NCBI GenBank assembly: GCA_902776615.1
Contig: CACYQU010000013.1
Span: forward strand, 1 to 40,826
Origin: an uncultured bacterium
GTDB taxonomy: Bacteria > Verrucomicrobiota > Kiritimatiellia > RFP12 > UBA1067
Direction: 5' to 3'
Length of the DNA stretch: 40,826 bases
A program made the position numbers and the translations under genes. The notes below the pieces were generated by a model that was not told the DNA's origin, searched no databases, and saw only the letters and a program-made list of their open reading frames with translations. Shown in pieces: positions 25,825 to 40,532 of this stretch. Position 1 is the stretch's first letter; every line of letters begins with the position of its first letter.

Positions 25825-28800
25825 ATGAAAAACATCACAACCATCGCATTTCTGATTGTCGCGTTCGCTTCGCATGCAGAATCGGCCGCAACCCCAGCCC
25901 CAGTGCGGCTCGCCTATAACTACTGCACTCTTTCGTACACCTTCGCCTACTACGGCGAGAAAGAATGGACGGATGAGGTCGAAAGACTTTCCATGGCCGG
26001 ATACAACGCTGCGCTGCTCATGGACGGCACATTCAAAGTCTGGGAGCTTACGCTGCGCGAACTTGGCATGTCCGAAGAAGATATCTTCGCTTTCATCCCC
26101 GACGAATGCGCACGAGCATGGTGGCTTATGGGCAACCTCGCAGGAGAGGGCGGTCCGCTCGACCAGGCGACGATTGACGCGGATGGAGCACGCGGTCGCT
26201 TCATAGCCGAAAAAATGCGCGAGAAGGGGATAGAGCCCGTTCTCCAAGGCTTTTACGGAATGGTTCCTGCCAATCTTGCCGTCGCGCCGCTTCTCAATCA
26301 GGGAAAGTGGTGCGACTGCTATGATCGCCCGCCGATTCTCGATCCGACTTCGCCAGACTTTGAGCGTTGCGCCGCCGCGTGGTACCGCAGCATCGAAACG
26401 GTATATGGGATCAAGCCGAAGTACCTTGCAGGCGATCTCTTCCACGAAGGCGGCAAGTCCGAAGGAATAGACGTGACGGCTGCCGTGCGTGCCGTACAGT
26501 CTGCTCAGCAGACAGCGTTCCCTGGCGTGACCTGGGTCGTGCAGGCCTGGATGGAGAACCCCACGCAAAAGGTTCGCGCCGGTCTCGACCCTCGTTACAC
26601 TCTCATCGAAGCCCTCGTCAAGGACATGTCGGCATTCGCGAGCGACGACGCGACGTGCGAACTGGATTTCGGCGAATTGCCGTGGATATGGTGCGAGGTT
26701 CTGAACTTCGGCGGCAACCACGGTCTTTACGGAAACCTCAAAACGTTTGCACGCCTCGGGCGCGCGGCTAAGGGGAAAGGTGCGCGGACATTCCGCGGCT
26801 TCGGATCTCTTTCCGAGGGTTTCTTCACGAATCCAGTCTGCTCGGATATCTTCGAGTACATGATGATGCAACCAGCCGGGACGGAACTGACAGATGCCGA
26901 ACTCGCCGCGTGGCTCGACGATTGGGTGGGCAGGCGCTACGATCTGAACTCTCTGACCCCGTCTGCCGGCGACAAACTTCGCGAGGCGTGGCGCATTATC
27001 GCGTCGACGGCCTACGCCTGCGGACGCTGCCAGGAGGGAACTGTCGAGAACGTCATATGCGCCAAGCCGGGCTGGACGGCGAACAGCGCGAGCTCGTGGG
27101 GTCCGAAGGACGGTCTGTGGTATGACCCGGCGCGGTTTGGGCGCGCGGCGGAACTCTTCGAGGAGGCATGGAAGGAGAGCCTTTCCACATCCAACTCGAC
27201 AGCCGTGGCGAACTTCGCGCGCGATCGGTATGACGTTCGCCGACAGGCGTGGGCGAACAGGCTGCGCGCGCTTGTGCCGCAGTTGAAGGACAACGCGGAC
27301 GCGCGGCGCGAGTTTCTGAATGAAGCGGAGTCGTTCAACGTCTGCACGGCTTTCGGCATTCCGCCGGAATTCCGCCTTTCCACATGGCTGGATCTCGCCC
27401 GGGCGCGCGCCGGGGAGCGCGGAGAAAAGGCGTGGATGAGGATGATCACGACGTGGGCCGGCGCGAAATACGGCGCGACATTCCTCGCCGACTACGCCAA
27501 CCGCGAATATGCGGAACTCGTCCGCGACCACTACCTACCTCGTTGGCGCCGCTTTCTGGAGACGGCAACACCATTGCCGCCGATCGAGCCTCGGCCTCTG
27601 CCGCTGATTCGCGTTGACAATCTTCGCGCGAACGAAAAGCCTGTCAAAGTCGAGACTTCCGAGGAAACCGTTGACGAGAACGGATTCTTCCGCCGCGTGA
27701 AGACGGTTTTCGCCTTCACTAATCCGAATGCGCGCCAGATGTCGGGCGAGCTGGAGTTCCCCATTCCAGACGGTGCCTTTGTATGCGGTTATTCGCTTGA
27801 GGTGAATGGCGAGATGGTTCCAGGCGTCGTCTGCGAAAAGGAAAAGGCGCGCGTAGCTTTCGAAAACGAAGTAAAAAAAGGAATAGACCCTGGTGTCGTC
27901 GAGCAGGTGAAAGGCAATATCTGGCGCACGAGAATCTTTCCTCTCCTGCCAAATACGCCGCGCCGCGCCGAGGTTGAATACATTGCGCCAAAAACCGTAG
28001 GCAAGGGTTCCTGCGCATCGATCTGCGAACGCGACGGAAAGGATGTCTTTGTCGCAACGGTTCTGCCTGAAGACGGCGCGAAGATGCAGACTGTCGCCCA
28101 AAAGATCGCCGCGTTCGCCAAGGGTACGATACTGTGGGATGCGAGCATGAGCGCGAAGCCGTTCGCGTCGGCATGGCGCAAAAAACTCGAGGCACTGCCT
28201 GAAAAGGGCGAGTGGAAACTCGTAGTTTTCCGTCATGTCCCTGAAGATCCCCGCGCAATGGCAACGCGAGAAGAACTGTTTGCGGCGCTCGATGCGCTCG
28301 CATACGACGGCGGTACGGATATCAAGGCCGCTGTTGAAGCATGCACGCCTTCGGCTGATTCTCCAGTTCTCTTCTTCAGCGACGAGGTCGATACAATGGG
28401 CCTTGAAACGCCTAAATACGAGGAGACGGCTGGCGTCACCGTCGCAAGCCGTGACGACGCCCCGGTGCGCAAGGTCGATATAAGGCGGTTAAAGGAAGGG
28501 GAGACGCCTCCCGAGGGACTGTCCGTCAAAGATGGCCGGGTTCTCGCCACGGTCTGGGCTGCGCGTCGCATGCAGGATCTTGCGTCGCAGGCCGATTCGC
28601 GCGAGGGCGAGTTCCTCGCGCTCGGCCGCAAGTACGGCGTCGCTGGACCAGGACTTTCGCTTATAGTTCTTGAAACGCTCGATCAGTGGCTTGAGCACAA
28701 GATCGAGCCTCCTGCCAACCTCGCGATTCACGATGAATGGATCAAGAGGCGCGCGGCCGAGGATGATCCGATTGCGCTTCGCAAAGCCAAAGCAGAACAC

Positions 28801-30105
28801 GAACAGAATCTTCTCAACTACTGGGAAGAGCGCGTCAAGTGGTGGAACGATCCCAAGCCGCGCAAGGCCACGCCCAAGAGCGGACTTTTCGACAGCGTCA
28901 CGAACGATGCCGCAACCGAGGGTGCGATCGCTCCGGACGAACCTGGCGGTTCAGAGGATTCAGCGCCGGTTGCCGCCGCTTCGGGAATGCGCCGTTCTGA
29001 AGAGCGGCTGCAGAGGCGTGCAGTGGGCTCGAGAAGGGAGTCTGCGCCGATGAGTGAAGACGAGGCCTCTTTACTGATGGCGGGTGGCGCACAGAAATCC
29101 GTTCAACCGGGCGCGGCAGGGTCTGGCACATCGCCAACAGTCACGCTCAAGGCGTGGGATCCGAAGACGCCGTATATCGATGCGCTCAAGGCTGCGGAGA
29201 AGGGCAGAGCGTATGAAGTATATCTCGCCCAGCGCGAAGAGCACGGTTCTTCGCCGGCGTTCTATCTCGACTGCAGCGGTTGGTTCTTCAAAGCGGGCGA
29301 AAGGGCACTTGCCGAGCGAATCATTTCGAACCTCGCAGAATTCAAGCTTGAGGACGCGGCGCTCTGGCGCACGATGGGCTGGCGTCTGCGCGAGGCCGGC
29401 AGCCTGAAGATGGCGGTCGACGCATTCCGCAAGGTTCTTGCGATGCTCCCTGAGGAGGCGCAGAGCCGCCGCGACTTGGCGCTTGTGCTTTCGGAACTCG
29501 GCAAGGAGCGCATGGATGCGGCCGCCGTCGAAGAGGCGATGAGGCTTTTCGCAGAAGCGGCGTTCGACATAAATGCCCGGCGCAGCGGACGGCGCGGCAA
29601 CGATTTCCAGGTTTCAATCGTCTCGCTTGAAGAGCTCAACGGGCTGATTGCCTGGTCCGATGCGGCTTTCTGGCCGGACGGCGCGAGACCTGTCCAGCCG
29701 CAATTCGATGCCGCCTATCGCCGTGATTTGCCGATGAAGCTCAGAATCGTCATGAGCTGGGATGCGGACGAGACCGATATAGACCTCCATGTGCTGGAGC
29801 CGAACGGCGAAGAAGCGTATTACGGTCATCGCAGAACTGCCGAGGGAGGTTTTGTCTCGGAGGATGTAACGACCGGTTACGGTCCTGAGGAATACCTGAA
29901 GAAGGAGCTTGAGGCCGGAACATACAAAGTCCTGTCCAACTACTTCGCCTCCCACCAGACCGCGCTCACCGGCGCGACGACCGTGACTGCGACCGTCTAT
30001 ACAGACTGGGCGACAGGACAGGAGAAGCATCAGATTCTCACCATGCGCCTCGACAAACCGAAGGCAAAGCATTTGATTGGAGAGGTCAATCTCGGCAATC
30101 GCTGA
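25825..30105 (+). CDS. GH89 alpha-N-acetylglucosaminidase fused to VIT, VWA, TPR and DUF2135 (YfaP) domains
   Basis: A 1426-residue exported protein. A signal peptide (1-18, ending FASHA) leads into a complete GH89 domain (about 25-590): NYCTLSYTFAYYG, WIWCEVLNFGGNHGLYGNL, acid/base candidate Glu208 in GDLFHE, nucleophile candidate Glu331 in GSLSEGFF, and the usual all-helical tail. A VIT domain starts near 593. A VWA domain follows with an intact metal site: DASMS (772-776), GGTD near 831 and a later SDEVD. After a low-complexity linker (about 1020-1110) come TPR-like helices (1111-1245) beginning AWDPKTPY, then DUF2135 (1303-1426) with SWDADETDIDLHVLEPNG. VIT-VWA-TPR-DUF2135 is a known bacterial architecture; the GH89 front is the unusual part. 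GH89 removes terminal alpha-GlcNAc. The reading frame is unbroken through all junctions. AAGGAGG precedes the ATG. Confidence 0.9.
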   Translation: MKNITTIAFLIVAFASHAESAATPAPVRLAYNYCTLSYTFAYYGEKEWTDEVERLSMAGYNAALLMDGTFKVWELTLRELGMSEEDIFAFIPDECARAWWLMGNLAGEGGPLDQATIDADGARGRFIAEKMREKGIEPVLQGFYGMVPANLAVAPLLNQGKWCDCYDRPPILDPTSPDFERCAAAWYRSIETVYGIKPKYLAGDLFHEGGKSEGIDVTAAVRAVQSAQQTAFPGVTWVVQAWMENPTQKVRAGLDPRYTLIEALVKDMSAFASDDATCELDFGELPWIWCEVLNFGGNHGLYGNLKTFARLGRAAKGKGARTFRGFGSLSEGFFTNPVCSDIFEYMMMQPAGTELTDAELAAWLDDWVGRRYDLNSLTPSAGDKLREAWRIIASTAYACGRCQEGTVENVICAKPGWTANSASSWGPKDGLWYDPARFGRAAELFEEAWKESLSTSNSTAVANFARDRYDVRRQAWANRLRALVPQLKDNADARREFLNEAESFNVCTAFGIPPEFRLSTWLDLARARAGERGEKAWMRMITTWAGAKYGATFLADYANREYAELVRDHYLPRWRRFLETATPLPPIEPRPLPLIRVDNLRANEKPVKVETSEETVDENGFFRRVKTVFAFTNPNARQMSGELEFPIPDGAFVCGYSLEVNGEMVPGVVCEKEKARVAFENEVKKGIDPGVVEQVKGNIWRTRIFPLLPNTPRRAEVEYIAPKTVGKGSCASICERDGKDVFVATVLPEDGAKMQTVAQKIAAFAKGTILWDASMSAKPFASAWRKKLEALPEKGEWKLVVFRHVPEDPRAMATREELFAALDALAYDGGTDIKAAVEACTPSADSPVLFFSDEVDTMGLETPKYEETAGVTVASRDDAPVRKVDIRRLKEGETPPEGLSVKDGRVLATVWAARRMQDLASQADSREGEFLALGRKYGVAGPGLSLIVLETLDQWLEHKIEPPANLAIHDEWIKRRAAEDDPIALRKAKAEHEQNLLNYWEERVKWWNDPKPRKATPKSGLFDSVTNDAATEGAIAPDEPGGSEDSAPVAAASGMRRSEERLQRRAVGSRRESAPMSEDEASLLMAGGAQKSVQPGAAGSGTSPTVTLKAWDPKTPYIDALKAAEKGRAYEVYLAQREEHGSSPAFYLDCSGWFFKAGERALAERIISNLAEFKLEDAALWRTMGWRLREAGSLKMAVDAFRKVLAMLPEEAQSRRDLALVLSELGKERMDAAAVEEAMRLFAEAAFDINARRSGRRGNDFQVSIVSLEELNGLIAWSDAAFWPDGARPVQPQFDAAYRRDLPMKLRIVMSWDADETDIDLHVLEPNGEEAYYGHRRTAEGGFVSEDVTTGYGPEEYLKKELEAGTYKVLSNYFASHQTALTGATTVTATVYTDWATGQEKHQILTMRLDKPKAKHLIGEVNLGNR

Positions 30106-38121: not shown

Positions 38122-39762
38122 TTATTTGTTCTTCACGCCGCCGAAACGGTCCGCGTCTTTGATGGTTGGCGCATCCTCGGAGAATGTGAAGTCCTTGCCC
38201 GGCAGAACCGCGTTGAGCACGATGCCCATCAACGCGCCCACGGCCAGGCCGGAAAGCGAGATGTTGACAGAGCCGACCGAAAACGCAATCGCGCCTCCCT
38301 TGGAGAAGGAAATGCCCAGCGTGAGCACAAGGATGAGCGCCGTGATGAGCATGTTGCGGCTCTTGCCGAGATCGACCTGGCTCTCTACGAGGTTGCGAAC
38401 GCCGACCGCAGAAATCATTCCGTACAGGATGAACGACACGCCGCCGATTGTCGCGGCCGGAATAGTGCCGATGAACGCGGAGAACTTGGGACAGAACGAA
38501 ACGAGAATCGCCAGGCAAGCCGCAATGCGAATCACCCGCGGATCGTACACCTTCGAAAGCGACAGCACGCCCGTGTTCTCGCCGTACGTCGTGTTCGCGG
38601 GCGCTCCGCAGAGGGAGGCCAGCATCGTGGCAAGTCCGTCGCCGAGCATCGTGCGATGCAGGCCGGGCTTCTCGAAGAAGTTGCGCCCGACGGTCGACGA
38701 AATCGCCGACACGTCGCCGACATGCTCCATGATCGTGGCGAACGCCAGCGGGAACACGATGAGTATCGCGCTCATGATCCGCCCGAAATCGGGATGCGCC
38801 AAAAGCGGGAAAACCGTATTTTCCATCTTTACCGGAAGCCCGATCCATGCGGCATTGGCGACGGCGGTATAGTCGATGGAATCGCACCATCCGAACTTGC
38901 CGAAGATCACGGCCACTGCATACGAGAAGATTACACCCATCAGAATCGGGATGATCTTCAGCATCCCGCGGCCGAAGATGGAAAACGCTATCACCGTAAC
39001 GATCGCGACAAGCGCGACCGGCCAGTTGGTCGTGCAGCTGTTTACGGCGACAGGGGCCAGCACAAGACCGATTCCGATGATGATCGGCCCCGTAACCACC
39101 GGCGGGAAGAACTTCATCACCGCCTTTACGCCGCATACTTTCACGAACCACGAAACGATGAAGTACAGCAGCGCCGACGATGCGACGCCGAGACATGCGT
39201 ACTGAAGCATCGTTTCCTTCGAGCAGTCGGCGAAATGCCCCGTGCCTGCCATGCCCGCGAGAGCAAAGTATCCGGCGAGATAGGCAAAGCTCGAACCGAG
39301 AAATGCCGGCACCATACCCTTCGTAACAAGGTGGAAAAGCAGCGTTCCGACACCGGCCCAGAGAAGCGTCGCGCTCGGGCTCAGCCCGGTGAGGATTGGC
39401 ACGAGAATCGTCGCGCCGAACATTGCGAACATATGCTGCACGCCAAGAACGGCCATCTTCGGCATGCCGAGCGTGCGGGCATCGTATATCGCGTCGCTCG
39501 CCTGCAGTTTTTCGCGCAACGCGGCGATCCGCGATGCAAGCGCGGCAGATTCGTCGTCGGTAACTACCCCGTCGGCAGCGATGTCCTTGAGGAGGGCCTC
39601 GAGTTTCGCAAGGTCGTCGTCCTTGTCGGCAAAGGGATGCACAAGGCCGATCAATGCCTTGGTCTCGTCTATATCTGCTTTGCCATCTGCGAACGTGAAT
39701 TTCTCCGCAGCCGTAACAAGCTGCGAGAGCGTCCATTTGGTCGCCGTTTTGATTTCTGCCAT
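38122..39762 (-). CDS. NCS2 uracil/xanthine permease with extra N-terminal domain
   Basis: 546 residues. From about residue 100 the chain is a normal NCS2 (UraA-like) symporter of some twelve to fourteen segments, starting GVQHMFAMFGATILVPILTG and containing the NAT-type EHVGD motif and GAPANTTYGENTGV. The first 98 residues are extra: a soluble helical region with two copies of an ADG-x(5)-E pattern (Asp26/Glu33 and Asp64/Glu71) that resembles TerB-like acidic helical domains. NCS2 proteins normally have only about 15-25 residues before the first helix. The solute is a nucleobase; apt next door favours purine, but the sequence is closer by eye to uracil carriers. AAGGAG precedes the ATG. Confidence 0.92.
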   Translation of the reverse strand: MAEIKTATKWTLSQLVTAAEKFTFADGKADIDETKALIGLVHPFADKDDDLAKLEALLKDIAADGVVTDDESAALASRIAALREKLQASDAIYDARTLGMPKMAVLGVQHMFAMFGATILVPILTGLSPSATLLWAGVGTLLFHLVTKGMVPAFLGSSFAYLAGYFALAGMAGTGHFADCSKETMLQYACLGVASSALLYFIVSWFVKVCGVKAVMKFFPPVVTGPIIIGIGLVLAPVAVNSCTTNWPVALVAIVTVIAFSIFGRGMLKIIPILMGVIFSYAVAVIFGKFGWCDSIDYTAVANAAWIGLPVKMENTVFPLLAHPDFGRIMSAILIVFPLAFATIMEHVGDVSAISSTVGRNFFEKPGLHRTMLGDGLATMLASLCGAPANTTYGENTGVLSLSKVYDPRVIRIAACLAILVSFCPKFSAFIGTIPAATIGGVSFILYGMISAVGVRNLVESQVDLGKSRNMLITALILVLTLGISFSKGGAIAFSVGSVNISLSGLAVGALMGIVLNAVLPGKDFTFSEDAPTIKDADRFGGVKNK

Positions 39763-39809: not shown

Positions 39810-39895
39810 TATTCACTCTCCGCCTTGCAATCACAAGCCCCCTTCCACATCATCCATGGTAATCACGAGGGACAGTTCCTGTTGTTTCCAAAACG

Positions 39896-39947
39896 CTATA
39901 ATTGCACATTTTCGATTTTGGCTAAAAAGCCATTTTGTGCAGTTATA
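39896..39947. repeat. Outer inverted repeat and hairpin left of the array
   Basis: CTATAATTGCACA and TGTGCAGTTATAG form 13-base arms with one mismatch around an inner GGCT-AAAA-AGCC hairpin. ATAATTGCA recurs inverted at 40417-40425 (TGCAATTAT), on the other side of the array, so it may be an outer end of the same element. Confidence 0.55.
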
Positions 39948-39962
39948 GAGATTTCAAGGAGG

Positions 39963-40000
39963 CCAGTCCCCAGTTCCCAACAGGGGCCTGTCCCCAGTTT
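39963..40000 (+). repeat. Left end inverted repeat of the array element
   Basis: Contains GGGGCCTGTCCCCAGT (39983-39998), the exact reverse complement of 40263-40278. The similarity extends imperfectly over about 35 bases. Confidence 0.75.
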
Positions 40001-40040
40001 CACGAGAGCCTACCCCCGAGTAGCCCGCCCCCTCAGAAGA

Positions 40041-40247
40041 CAAACCCTATATAGACTTTGGGGTAAACCCTATATAGGGTTTATGGTAAAGTCTATATAG
40101 GGTTTATGGTAAAGTCTATATAGGGTTTTTAGTAAATCCTATATAAGGTTTTTAGTAAATCCTATATAGGGTTATGATTAAAGTCTATATAGGGTTTGTG
40201 GTAAAACCTATATAGGGTTTGGGGTAAAGCCTATATAGGGTTTAGGT
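40041..40247 (+). repeat. Nine contiguous 23-bp units with a palindromic CTATATAG core
   Basis: Units of exactly 23 bases start at 40041, 40064, 40087, 40110, 40133, 40156, 40179, 40202 and 40225. The best unit holds the perfect 18-base palindrome AAACCCTATATAGGGTTT. The right arm AGGGTTT is nearly constant while the left arm varies (AAAGTC, AAATCC, AAAACC, AAAGCC). The first unit has the arms swapped relative to units 2, 3 and 6. There are no spacers, so it is not a CRISPR. Confidence 0.95.
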
Positions 40248-40260
40248 TTTACCCCCGCCC

Positions 40261-40296
40261 ACACTGGGGACAGGCCCCCTTGAAACTGGGGACAGT
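40261..40296 (-). repeat. Right end inverted repeat of the array element
   Basis: ACTGGGGACAGGCCCC (40263-40278) followed by TTGAAACTGGGGACAG mirrors the left end at 39963-40000 in inverted orientation. Confidence 0.75.
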
Positions 40297-40405
40297 CATT
40301 CCTAAAATGGGGGACTGTCCCCGCTTTTAAGACCCAATTCAGCGCCTGAGAAGCCGTTCGTTGCCTCAAATACGGCCTATCATACACGGCACGAAAGCGT
40401 AAAAG

Positions 40406-40420
40406 TGCAATATATTTGCA
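40406..40420. repeat. TGCAA-TATAT-TTGCA inverted repeat
   Basis: Perfect 5-base arms around TATAT, overlapping the TGCAATTAT that mirrors the left outer repeat. Purpose unknown. Confidence 0.4.
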
Positions 40421-40532
40421 ATTATGATGAGTTATCGCCCTAAAAGCGGGCTAAGCCAGGGCGGGTTAGCAAAATCAGGCGGGGACAGTCCCTCTTTTGC
40501 CTTTGGAAGACTTTGAACCCTCCTTATTACGG

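Follow-up and report, generated by a model that had tools for sequence, protein, structure and literature searches.

The array of near-palindromic units detected in the window (the whole analysed stretch of 40,826 nucleotides) may be an orphan chromosomal member of a group of iteron-like arrays in which phased sites are bound by a dimeric protein of the initiator type, to which we assign a probability of roughly 45%. The confidence is limited because this reading of the window rests on the architecture of the array and on a core and period common with arrays of Bacteroides, and not on a resident gene, and because Lin1244_N and Rep_3 genes are absent. The array belongs to a broader class of many intergenic arrays with species-specific cores and periods of mostly 22-23 bp, which correspond to two helical turns.

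The window array (40042-40248, no strand assigned) consists of nine units starting at positions 40042, 40065, 40088, 40111, 40134, 40157, 40180, 40203 and 40226, with exactly 23 bp between all successive unit starts. TRF reported a period of 23 (score 241), and six phased exact core pairs were observed in the window against 0.00 expected from 100 dinucleotide shuffles. Unit 1 (40042-40064, minus strand; AAACCCTATATAGACTTT followed by GGGGT) is inverted (AAACCC..GACTTT), unit 2 (40065-40087, no strand assigned; AAACCCTATATAGGGTTT followed by ATGGT) is symmetric (AAACCC..GGGTTT), and units 3-9 (40088-40248, plus strand; AAAnnCTATATAGGGTTT followed by five nucleotides) show the forward polarity (AAAnnC..GGGTTT). 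Nine units of exactly 23 bases with an inverted first unit had also been described in a first-pass annotation of this DNA, and both statements hold. Its further statements, that one core is common to all nine units and that the arms vary on one side only, were too strict: eight of the nine units contain CTATATAG and unit 5 contains CTATATAA, and the arm variation lies mainly on one side, the right arm being altered too in units 5 and 6.

The predicted folding of the window array is strong (z -13.5 as DNA, -11.8 as RNA) and would fit a structured RNA or single-stranded DNA that acts via long hairpins formed by the inverted units. Such folding is, however, expected of any palindrome array; RNA-like or hairpin-type long-range covariation was absent from 47 or 48 aligned arrays, and Rfam gave no match for the array. 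This explanation is highly improbable and is disfavoured, as are the CRISPR and simple-satellite readings treated below.

The junctions of the array (left, 40022-40041, CCCCTCAGAAG; right, 40244-40278, GGTTTTACCCCCGCCCACACTGGGGACAG; both plus strand, from alignment) are common to the arrays on C12, C15 and C43. The inverted repeats of about 35 bases, between which the first-pass annotation had placed the array, are present (39952-39974/40263-40285, 91%; 39983-39998/40263-40278, 16/16). Both belong to a GGGGACAG(T/G)CCCC repeat that matches the genome 23 times in forward and 21 times in reverse orientation, mostly distant from arrays, and they are therefore not components of the array but members of a separate family. 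The copies of this genome-wide palindrome, GGGGACAGnCCCC, occupy 39952-40017 in the left and 40263-40326 in the right flank (no strand assigned). These palindromes are dispersed over the genome, also around the window array, and resemble RAYT-type palindromes. The outer inverted pair that had been noted was also recovered (39898-39909/40414-40425, 11 of 12 positions matching), but it is part of a scaffold (ATAATTGCAC.. / ..TTTGCAATTAT..GCAAAATC; 39889-40475, no strand assigned) that carries a different array at two other loci. This scaffold recurs with CTATATAG arrays on C12 and, with its left part, on C43, and with CCCTWAGGG 22-bp arrays on C2 and C37; its alignment shows an exchange of arrays and no clean insertion.

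The window array lies in the 5' region of a xanthine/uracil permease-family gene (38122-39762, minus strand). The closest relative of the host by permease identity (G039) possesses an ortholog with 94% identical amino acids. Its genome is without exact CTATATAG pairs and contains several 22-bp arrays of the AAGTCTTGCCCAnnCTTT type instead. One of these, at the end of a contig, is located 5' of the permease ortholog; the comparison of this locus covers its permease side only.

The first-pass annotation had proposed to search the genome and its relatives for the core, and had regarded an array unique to its contig, with variable unit length, as a sign of random satellite growth. The host genome (G000), a Kiritimatiellae MAG of a rumen bacterium (2.35 Mb, 87.75% complete), contains CTATATAG 23-bp arrays at eight loci, while a reversed-pattern control gave none and a looser pattern returned the same eight loci and one stray place. 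These arrays comprise 4-9 units with a period of 23, two junctions (22 and 24 bp) excepted. The occurrence beyond one contig and the constant unit length speak against random growth. The polarity switch recurs as well, most arrays consisting of inverted units first and forward units thereafter. No pool of decayed array relics was found in a search of this genome with three mismatches. Among 57 sampled congeners (Kiritimatiellae and 'Verrucomicrobia' MAG records) the core is common to two, and the family is restricted to three genomes of one genus in this sampling.

In a scan of 84,980 species, Bacteroides sp. 519 (G096) was the only other genome with many arrays (about 55), and no exact core pair was present in its 198 relatives. 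In the common spacer forms of both the Kiritimatiellae and the Bacteroides CTATATAG arrays, TTnACCCC follows the core in the same register. The CTATATAG match across the two phyla could be a coincidence if such families are common. Single matches of the scan (L049, L067, L069 and L073) were set aside as probable chance tandem repeats or palindrome-rich DNA; L073 (1500-1600, a Chromatiales MAG) differs from the others in that its CTATATAG-like cores are clustered in palindrome-rich DNA, with distances of about 11-12 and 23 bp. PLSDB contained no plasmid matching the window region at the DNA level, and four phased cores gave no match in viral contigs.

The constraint on the arrays is most apparent in Bacteroides sp. 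519, where exactly five cores are present in 48 of 52 loci, the detection by three exact cores being such that decayed arrays could be missed. All 204 core intervals measure 23 bp, without any indel. Close copies differ on average by 9% in the 20-bp flanks and by 31% in the 15-bp spacers, but by only 1.1% in the cores. Satellite growth by local slippage, with the two-turn period as a mechanical preference and without a bound protein, would be in line with the unit number of 4-9 in the host genome; the constant number of cores in Bacteroides, the lack of the inter-unit indels typical of slippage satellites and the preservation of cores next to diverging spacers make this explanation, which is already disfavoured, very unlikely. 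Among the spacer differences of closest copies in Bacteroides sp. 519, 77% are transitions; in the flanks, for copies that resemble each other there, the figure is 63%.

The spacers conserve the purine/pyrimidine class more strictly than the individual base, and around the core the extended consensus is nearly palindromic. At core positions +-2 the units are anti-complementary, with z of -5.4 and -6.5; in both phyla complementary bases are less frequent there than expected (0.10 vs 0.40; 0.19 vs 0.37), from which it appears that each unit is composed of two different half-sites. The strongest covariation is local and not pairwise between units, which together with the anti-complementary positions is consistent with polar half-sites of a protein. 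As a whole, the constraint data read as those of polar, near-palindromic DNA sites with a fixed helical phasing.

Nearly all arrays are intergenic, with no consistent class or orientation of the neighbouring genes. They occur as dispersed cassettes in unrelated flanks, and because of this their mobility is likely. The intergenic position and the strongly kept cores of the dispersed copies might also be explained by a nucleoid or regulatory protein of the host, acting in chromosome organisation, as on a centromere-like site, or in multi-gene regulation, and unrelated to plasmid replication. This is quite improbable: unlike housekeeping sites, the cores differ between the sister species G000 and G039, the family is missing from most relatives of either host, and the neighbouring genes share no class or orientation.

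A wider class of arrays became evident when the DNA was scanned without bias for 6-mers of any kind that occur three times with a constant spacing of 12-60 bp; shuffled DNA yielded no array. In 435 kb of the 2.35-Mb host genome, 13 arrays were found (period 22 in six, 23 in four, 21 in one and 33 in two), so that 10 of 13 tandem arrays have a period of 22 or 23 bp. The families are CTATATAG, CCCTWAGGG (22 bp, six or seven cores, also with an orientation switch) and GGTGGCAGGTCT. The corresponding share in 404 kb around the arrays of Bacteroides sp. 519 was 70 of 89, with periods of 23 (55 arrays, most of them of the family used to fetch this DNA), 22 (15) and 14 (12 arrays, made of heptamer repeats), other periods being rare; further core families of this genome are TCCCGGTAGGA, AAATGCWGCATTT and AAATGCAGTTCATTT. 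Other Bacteroidales (310 kb, mostly arbitrary stretches) contributed 8 of 14 arrays with these periods (22 bp in seven, 23 bp in one; another one has 24 bp), and their cores differ again from those above. The class is patchy, because the 66-100 kb sampled from each of four relatives of the host (G011, G016, G032 and G075) contained no 22/23-bp array. In the literature covered, most subscription journals lying outside it, neither CTATATAG nor 22-23-bp phased arrays were found described for these phyla, and the wide class is apparently undescribed. Iterons are the nearest known kind, of which these arrays, as scattered orphans whose units are polar and near-palindromic and whose cores differ between species, represent a new form.

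In Bacteroidales, a part of the arrays is linked to genes for proteins with a Lin1244_N domain. Arrays were detected within 270 bp after the Lin1244_N stop codon at 6 of 20 sampled loci, against 0.19 expected (background 0.0096 per gene), an enrichment dominated by Bacteroides sp. 519 with four of the six matches. Among the sampled plus-strand loci, an array was present at L264 and none at L263 and L265. In Bacteroides sp. 519, the stop codon of intact Lin1244_N + DUF7833 genes is followed at a distance of 0-36 bp by an array of five cores, the core being CTATATAG or GTATATAG on C32 and C127 and AAATGAACTGCATTT on C54. An array 60 bp after a Lin1244_N gene was also met in G184 during unrelated sampling.

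Two plasmids show the same arrangement. On the B. ovatus plasmid NZ_CP081918.1, a 22-bp array is located 18 bp after the Lin1244 stop codon and is followed by a primase/helicase gene, and on the B. finegoldii plasmid NZ_OY725970.1 a 22-bp array lies between a Lin1244 C-terminal match and a primase/helicase gene. Furthermore, on the fecal contig MT839949 a DUF7833 frame is followed after about 50 bp by a 22-bp array with three forward and then three inverted cores, which repeats the orientation switch of the window array; no array is present in MT836259, an alignable relative.

The neighbours at the 52 Bacteroides loci include no gene common to most of them, and a motif regarded as a Lin1244 3' relic was found near 16 of 51 checked loci. 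Many intergenic CTGCTGCTGTTGATGATG loci of this genome (e.g. L042, L072 and L086) are mosaics of apparent Lin1244 3' relics, 8-bp tandem repeats of the GCGCGAAG type and arrays, as though a gene-array module had been copied and then eroded.

Phage replisome organizers are Lin1244/DnaD-like initiators with their own origins, and the phage homologs of Lin1244_N are annotated as replication initiation proteins or replisome organizers. The similarity lies in the Lin1244_N gene that precedes the array in some Bacteroidales and on plasmids. However, the phage genes that were checked were without a phased array, whereas the checked members of the DUF7833 subfamily mostly have one. Viral contigs gave no protein related to Lin1244-DUF7833.

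In the Kiritimatiellae, HMM searches of G000 and G039 detected neither Lin1244_N nor Rep_3 genes; both were consequently rejected as partners of the arrays. No recurrent gene was found beside the Kiritimatiellae arrays, and no initiator gene adjoins the window array or any other of them seen.

The main rival is a mobile cassette of the REP or MITE kind, in which the near-palindromic units, their symmetry broken at one position, would serve as hairpins or end-sites for a transposase acting in trans (of the Y1/RAYT kind, or a DDE enzyme with multiple sites), and the phasing would reflect the complex of this enzyme. REP, REPIN and BIME elements with their RAYT (PMC3733652, PMC3116915) are short, species-specific, imperfect palindromes that are intergenic, clustered and dispersed, and the arrays are alike in this respect. 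The dispersed cassettes with differing flanks, their nesting among RAYT-type palindromes and the polarity with a single orientation switch, which resembles fused left and right ends, agree with such an origin, as do the Y1 transposase genes of G000 (six) and G096 (four), of which one in G096 is preceded by an array at a distance of about 440 bp, on one side only. When tested, however, the defining features were mostly not found. Array cores are present at none of the six Y1 loci of G000, no array lies near three of the four G096 genes, of which two are clearly flanked by other palindromes, and Y1 genes also occur in relatives whose sampled DNA has no array. The GTAG/CGTC tag is absent from both strands of 40042-40243, no empty site or target duplication could be found, and the phasing of exactly 22-23 bp differs from REP elements. 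Stems kept by compensatory changes would likewise be expected, but positions +-2 are anti-complementary. A cassette of this kind is regarded as unlikely. A RAYT was also rejected as the array partner, as none adjoins the G000 arrays despite the RAYT-like flanking GGGGACAGnCCCC repeats, and the co-occurring RAYT that the first-pass annotation had suggested looking for was not found beside the arrays of this genome.

REP/RAYT-like loci were seen elsewhere. In Bacteroides sp. 519, small IS200-type Y1 genes (L191, 393-857; L192, 2628-3116) lie inside symmetric hairpin sets formed by GACCCCAATGGGGTCA, CGTAGGGCAAAGCCCTACG and CCCCCAGT..ACTGGGGG, and in G000 a RAYT-like Y1 transposase gene is bracketed by AAGGTCTGACCTT palindromes (e.g. 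L026, 1411-2560).

With CRISPR the arrays have in common a constant core that alternates with a variable spacer of fixed length. CRISPR repeats, however, measure about 24-48 bp and their spacers are unrelated, whereas the core here has 8-13 bp (8 bp for CTATATAG) and the spacers, of 10-15 bp, are variants of one another; no cas gene occurred among the neighbours examined.

The closest resemblance is to plasmid iterons. In plasmids such as RK2 and R6K, iterons are spaced by about 22-23 bp. Iterons of the RK2, R6K, F and P1 types are phased direct units of about 22 bp, 4-9 per cluster, with one half-site more conserved, and in-phase units of about two helical turns are also found here, their length of 22 or 23 bp being constant in each family. 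The initiator gene that adjoins iterons has its counterpart in a subset of the Bacteroidales arrays and on the two plasmids, where an initiator-type gene and a primase/helicase gene adjoin, but not in the Kiritimatiellae. Unlike iterons, the arrays occur in about 8-55 dispersed chromosomal copies without a gene, their near-palindromic units switch orientation once, and the host genome is without a Rep_3 initiator. Among the four options of the first-pass annotation, an iteron-like array is best supported by the 22-23-bp phasing, the conserved core with hypervariable spacers and the linkage to an initiator-type gene on plasmids. The option of a non-autonomous mobile element is partly borne out, in that the arrays are dispersed cassettes, and a centromere-like site and a structure-forming satellite receive little support.

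If the iteron-like reading applies, each 22-23-bp unit would be a near-palindromic site of a dimeric DNA-binding protein, with one strong and one relaxed half-site giving the unit its polarity. The spacing of two helical turns would place 4-9 proteins on one face of the DNA and thereby allow cooperative binding. The likeliest ancestral use would be iteron-like, in view of the arrays that lie behind Lin1244_N + DUF7833 genes in Bacteroidales and by a primase/helicase on plasmids. Gene-linked arrays might be the origin or operator of a Lin1244-DUF7833 replicon module, and the dispersed copies without a gene, including that of the window, array-only cassettes that could still be bound. We infer dimer binding, cooperativity and origin function, as well as an analogous protein for the Kiritimatiellae arrays, from this model.

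Should this be true, the chromosomes of some gut Bacteroidota and Kiritimatiellota would carry dozens of orphan, apparently selected, two-turn-phased arrays that are not seen by standard annotation, and one rule would account for much of the tandem-array content of these genomes. The candidate protein family would be DUF7833 with Lin1244_N, for which plasmid examples are at hand. It also raises the question whether chromosomes hold initiator sites as protection from plasmids. In a rather improbable and speculative extension, the orphan chromosomal arrays would be decoys that titrate or handcuff the initiators of invading Lin1244-DUF7833 plasmids or phage-plasmids and block their replication, i.e. 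a sequence-based replicon immunity; the fast core turnover between sister species would then reflect an arms race.

Two further features of the window were observed apart from the array. An open reading frame of 1426 amino acids (25825-30105, plus strand) combines NAGLU and NAGLU_C domains (alpha-N-acetylglucosaminidase) with a VIT domain and DUF2135, which is an unusual combination. In addition, two tandem copies of 63 bp with 96% identity are located within an open reading frame at 417-542.
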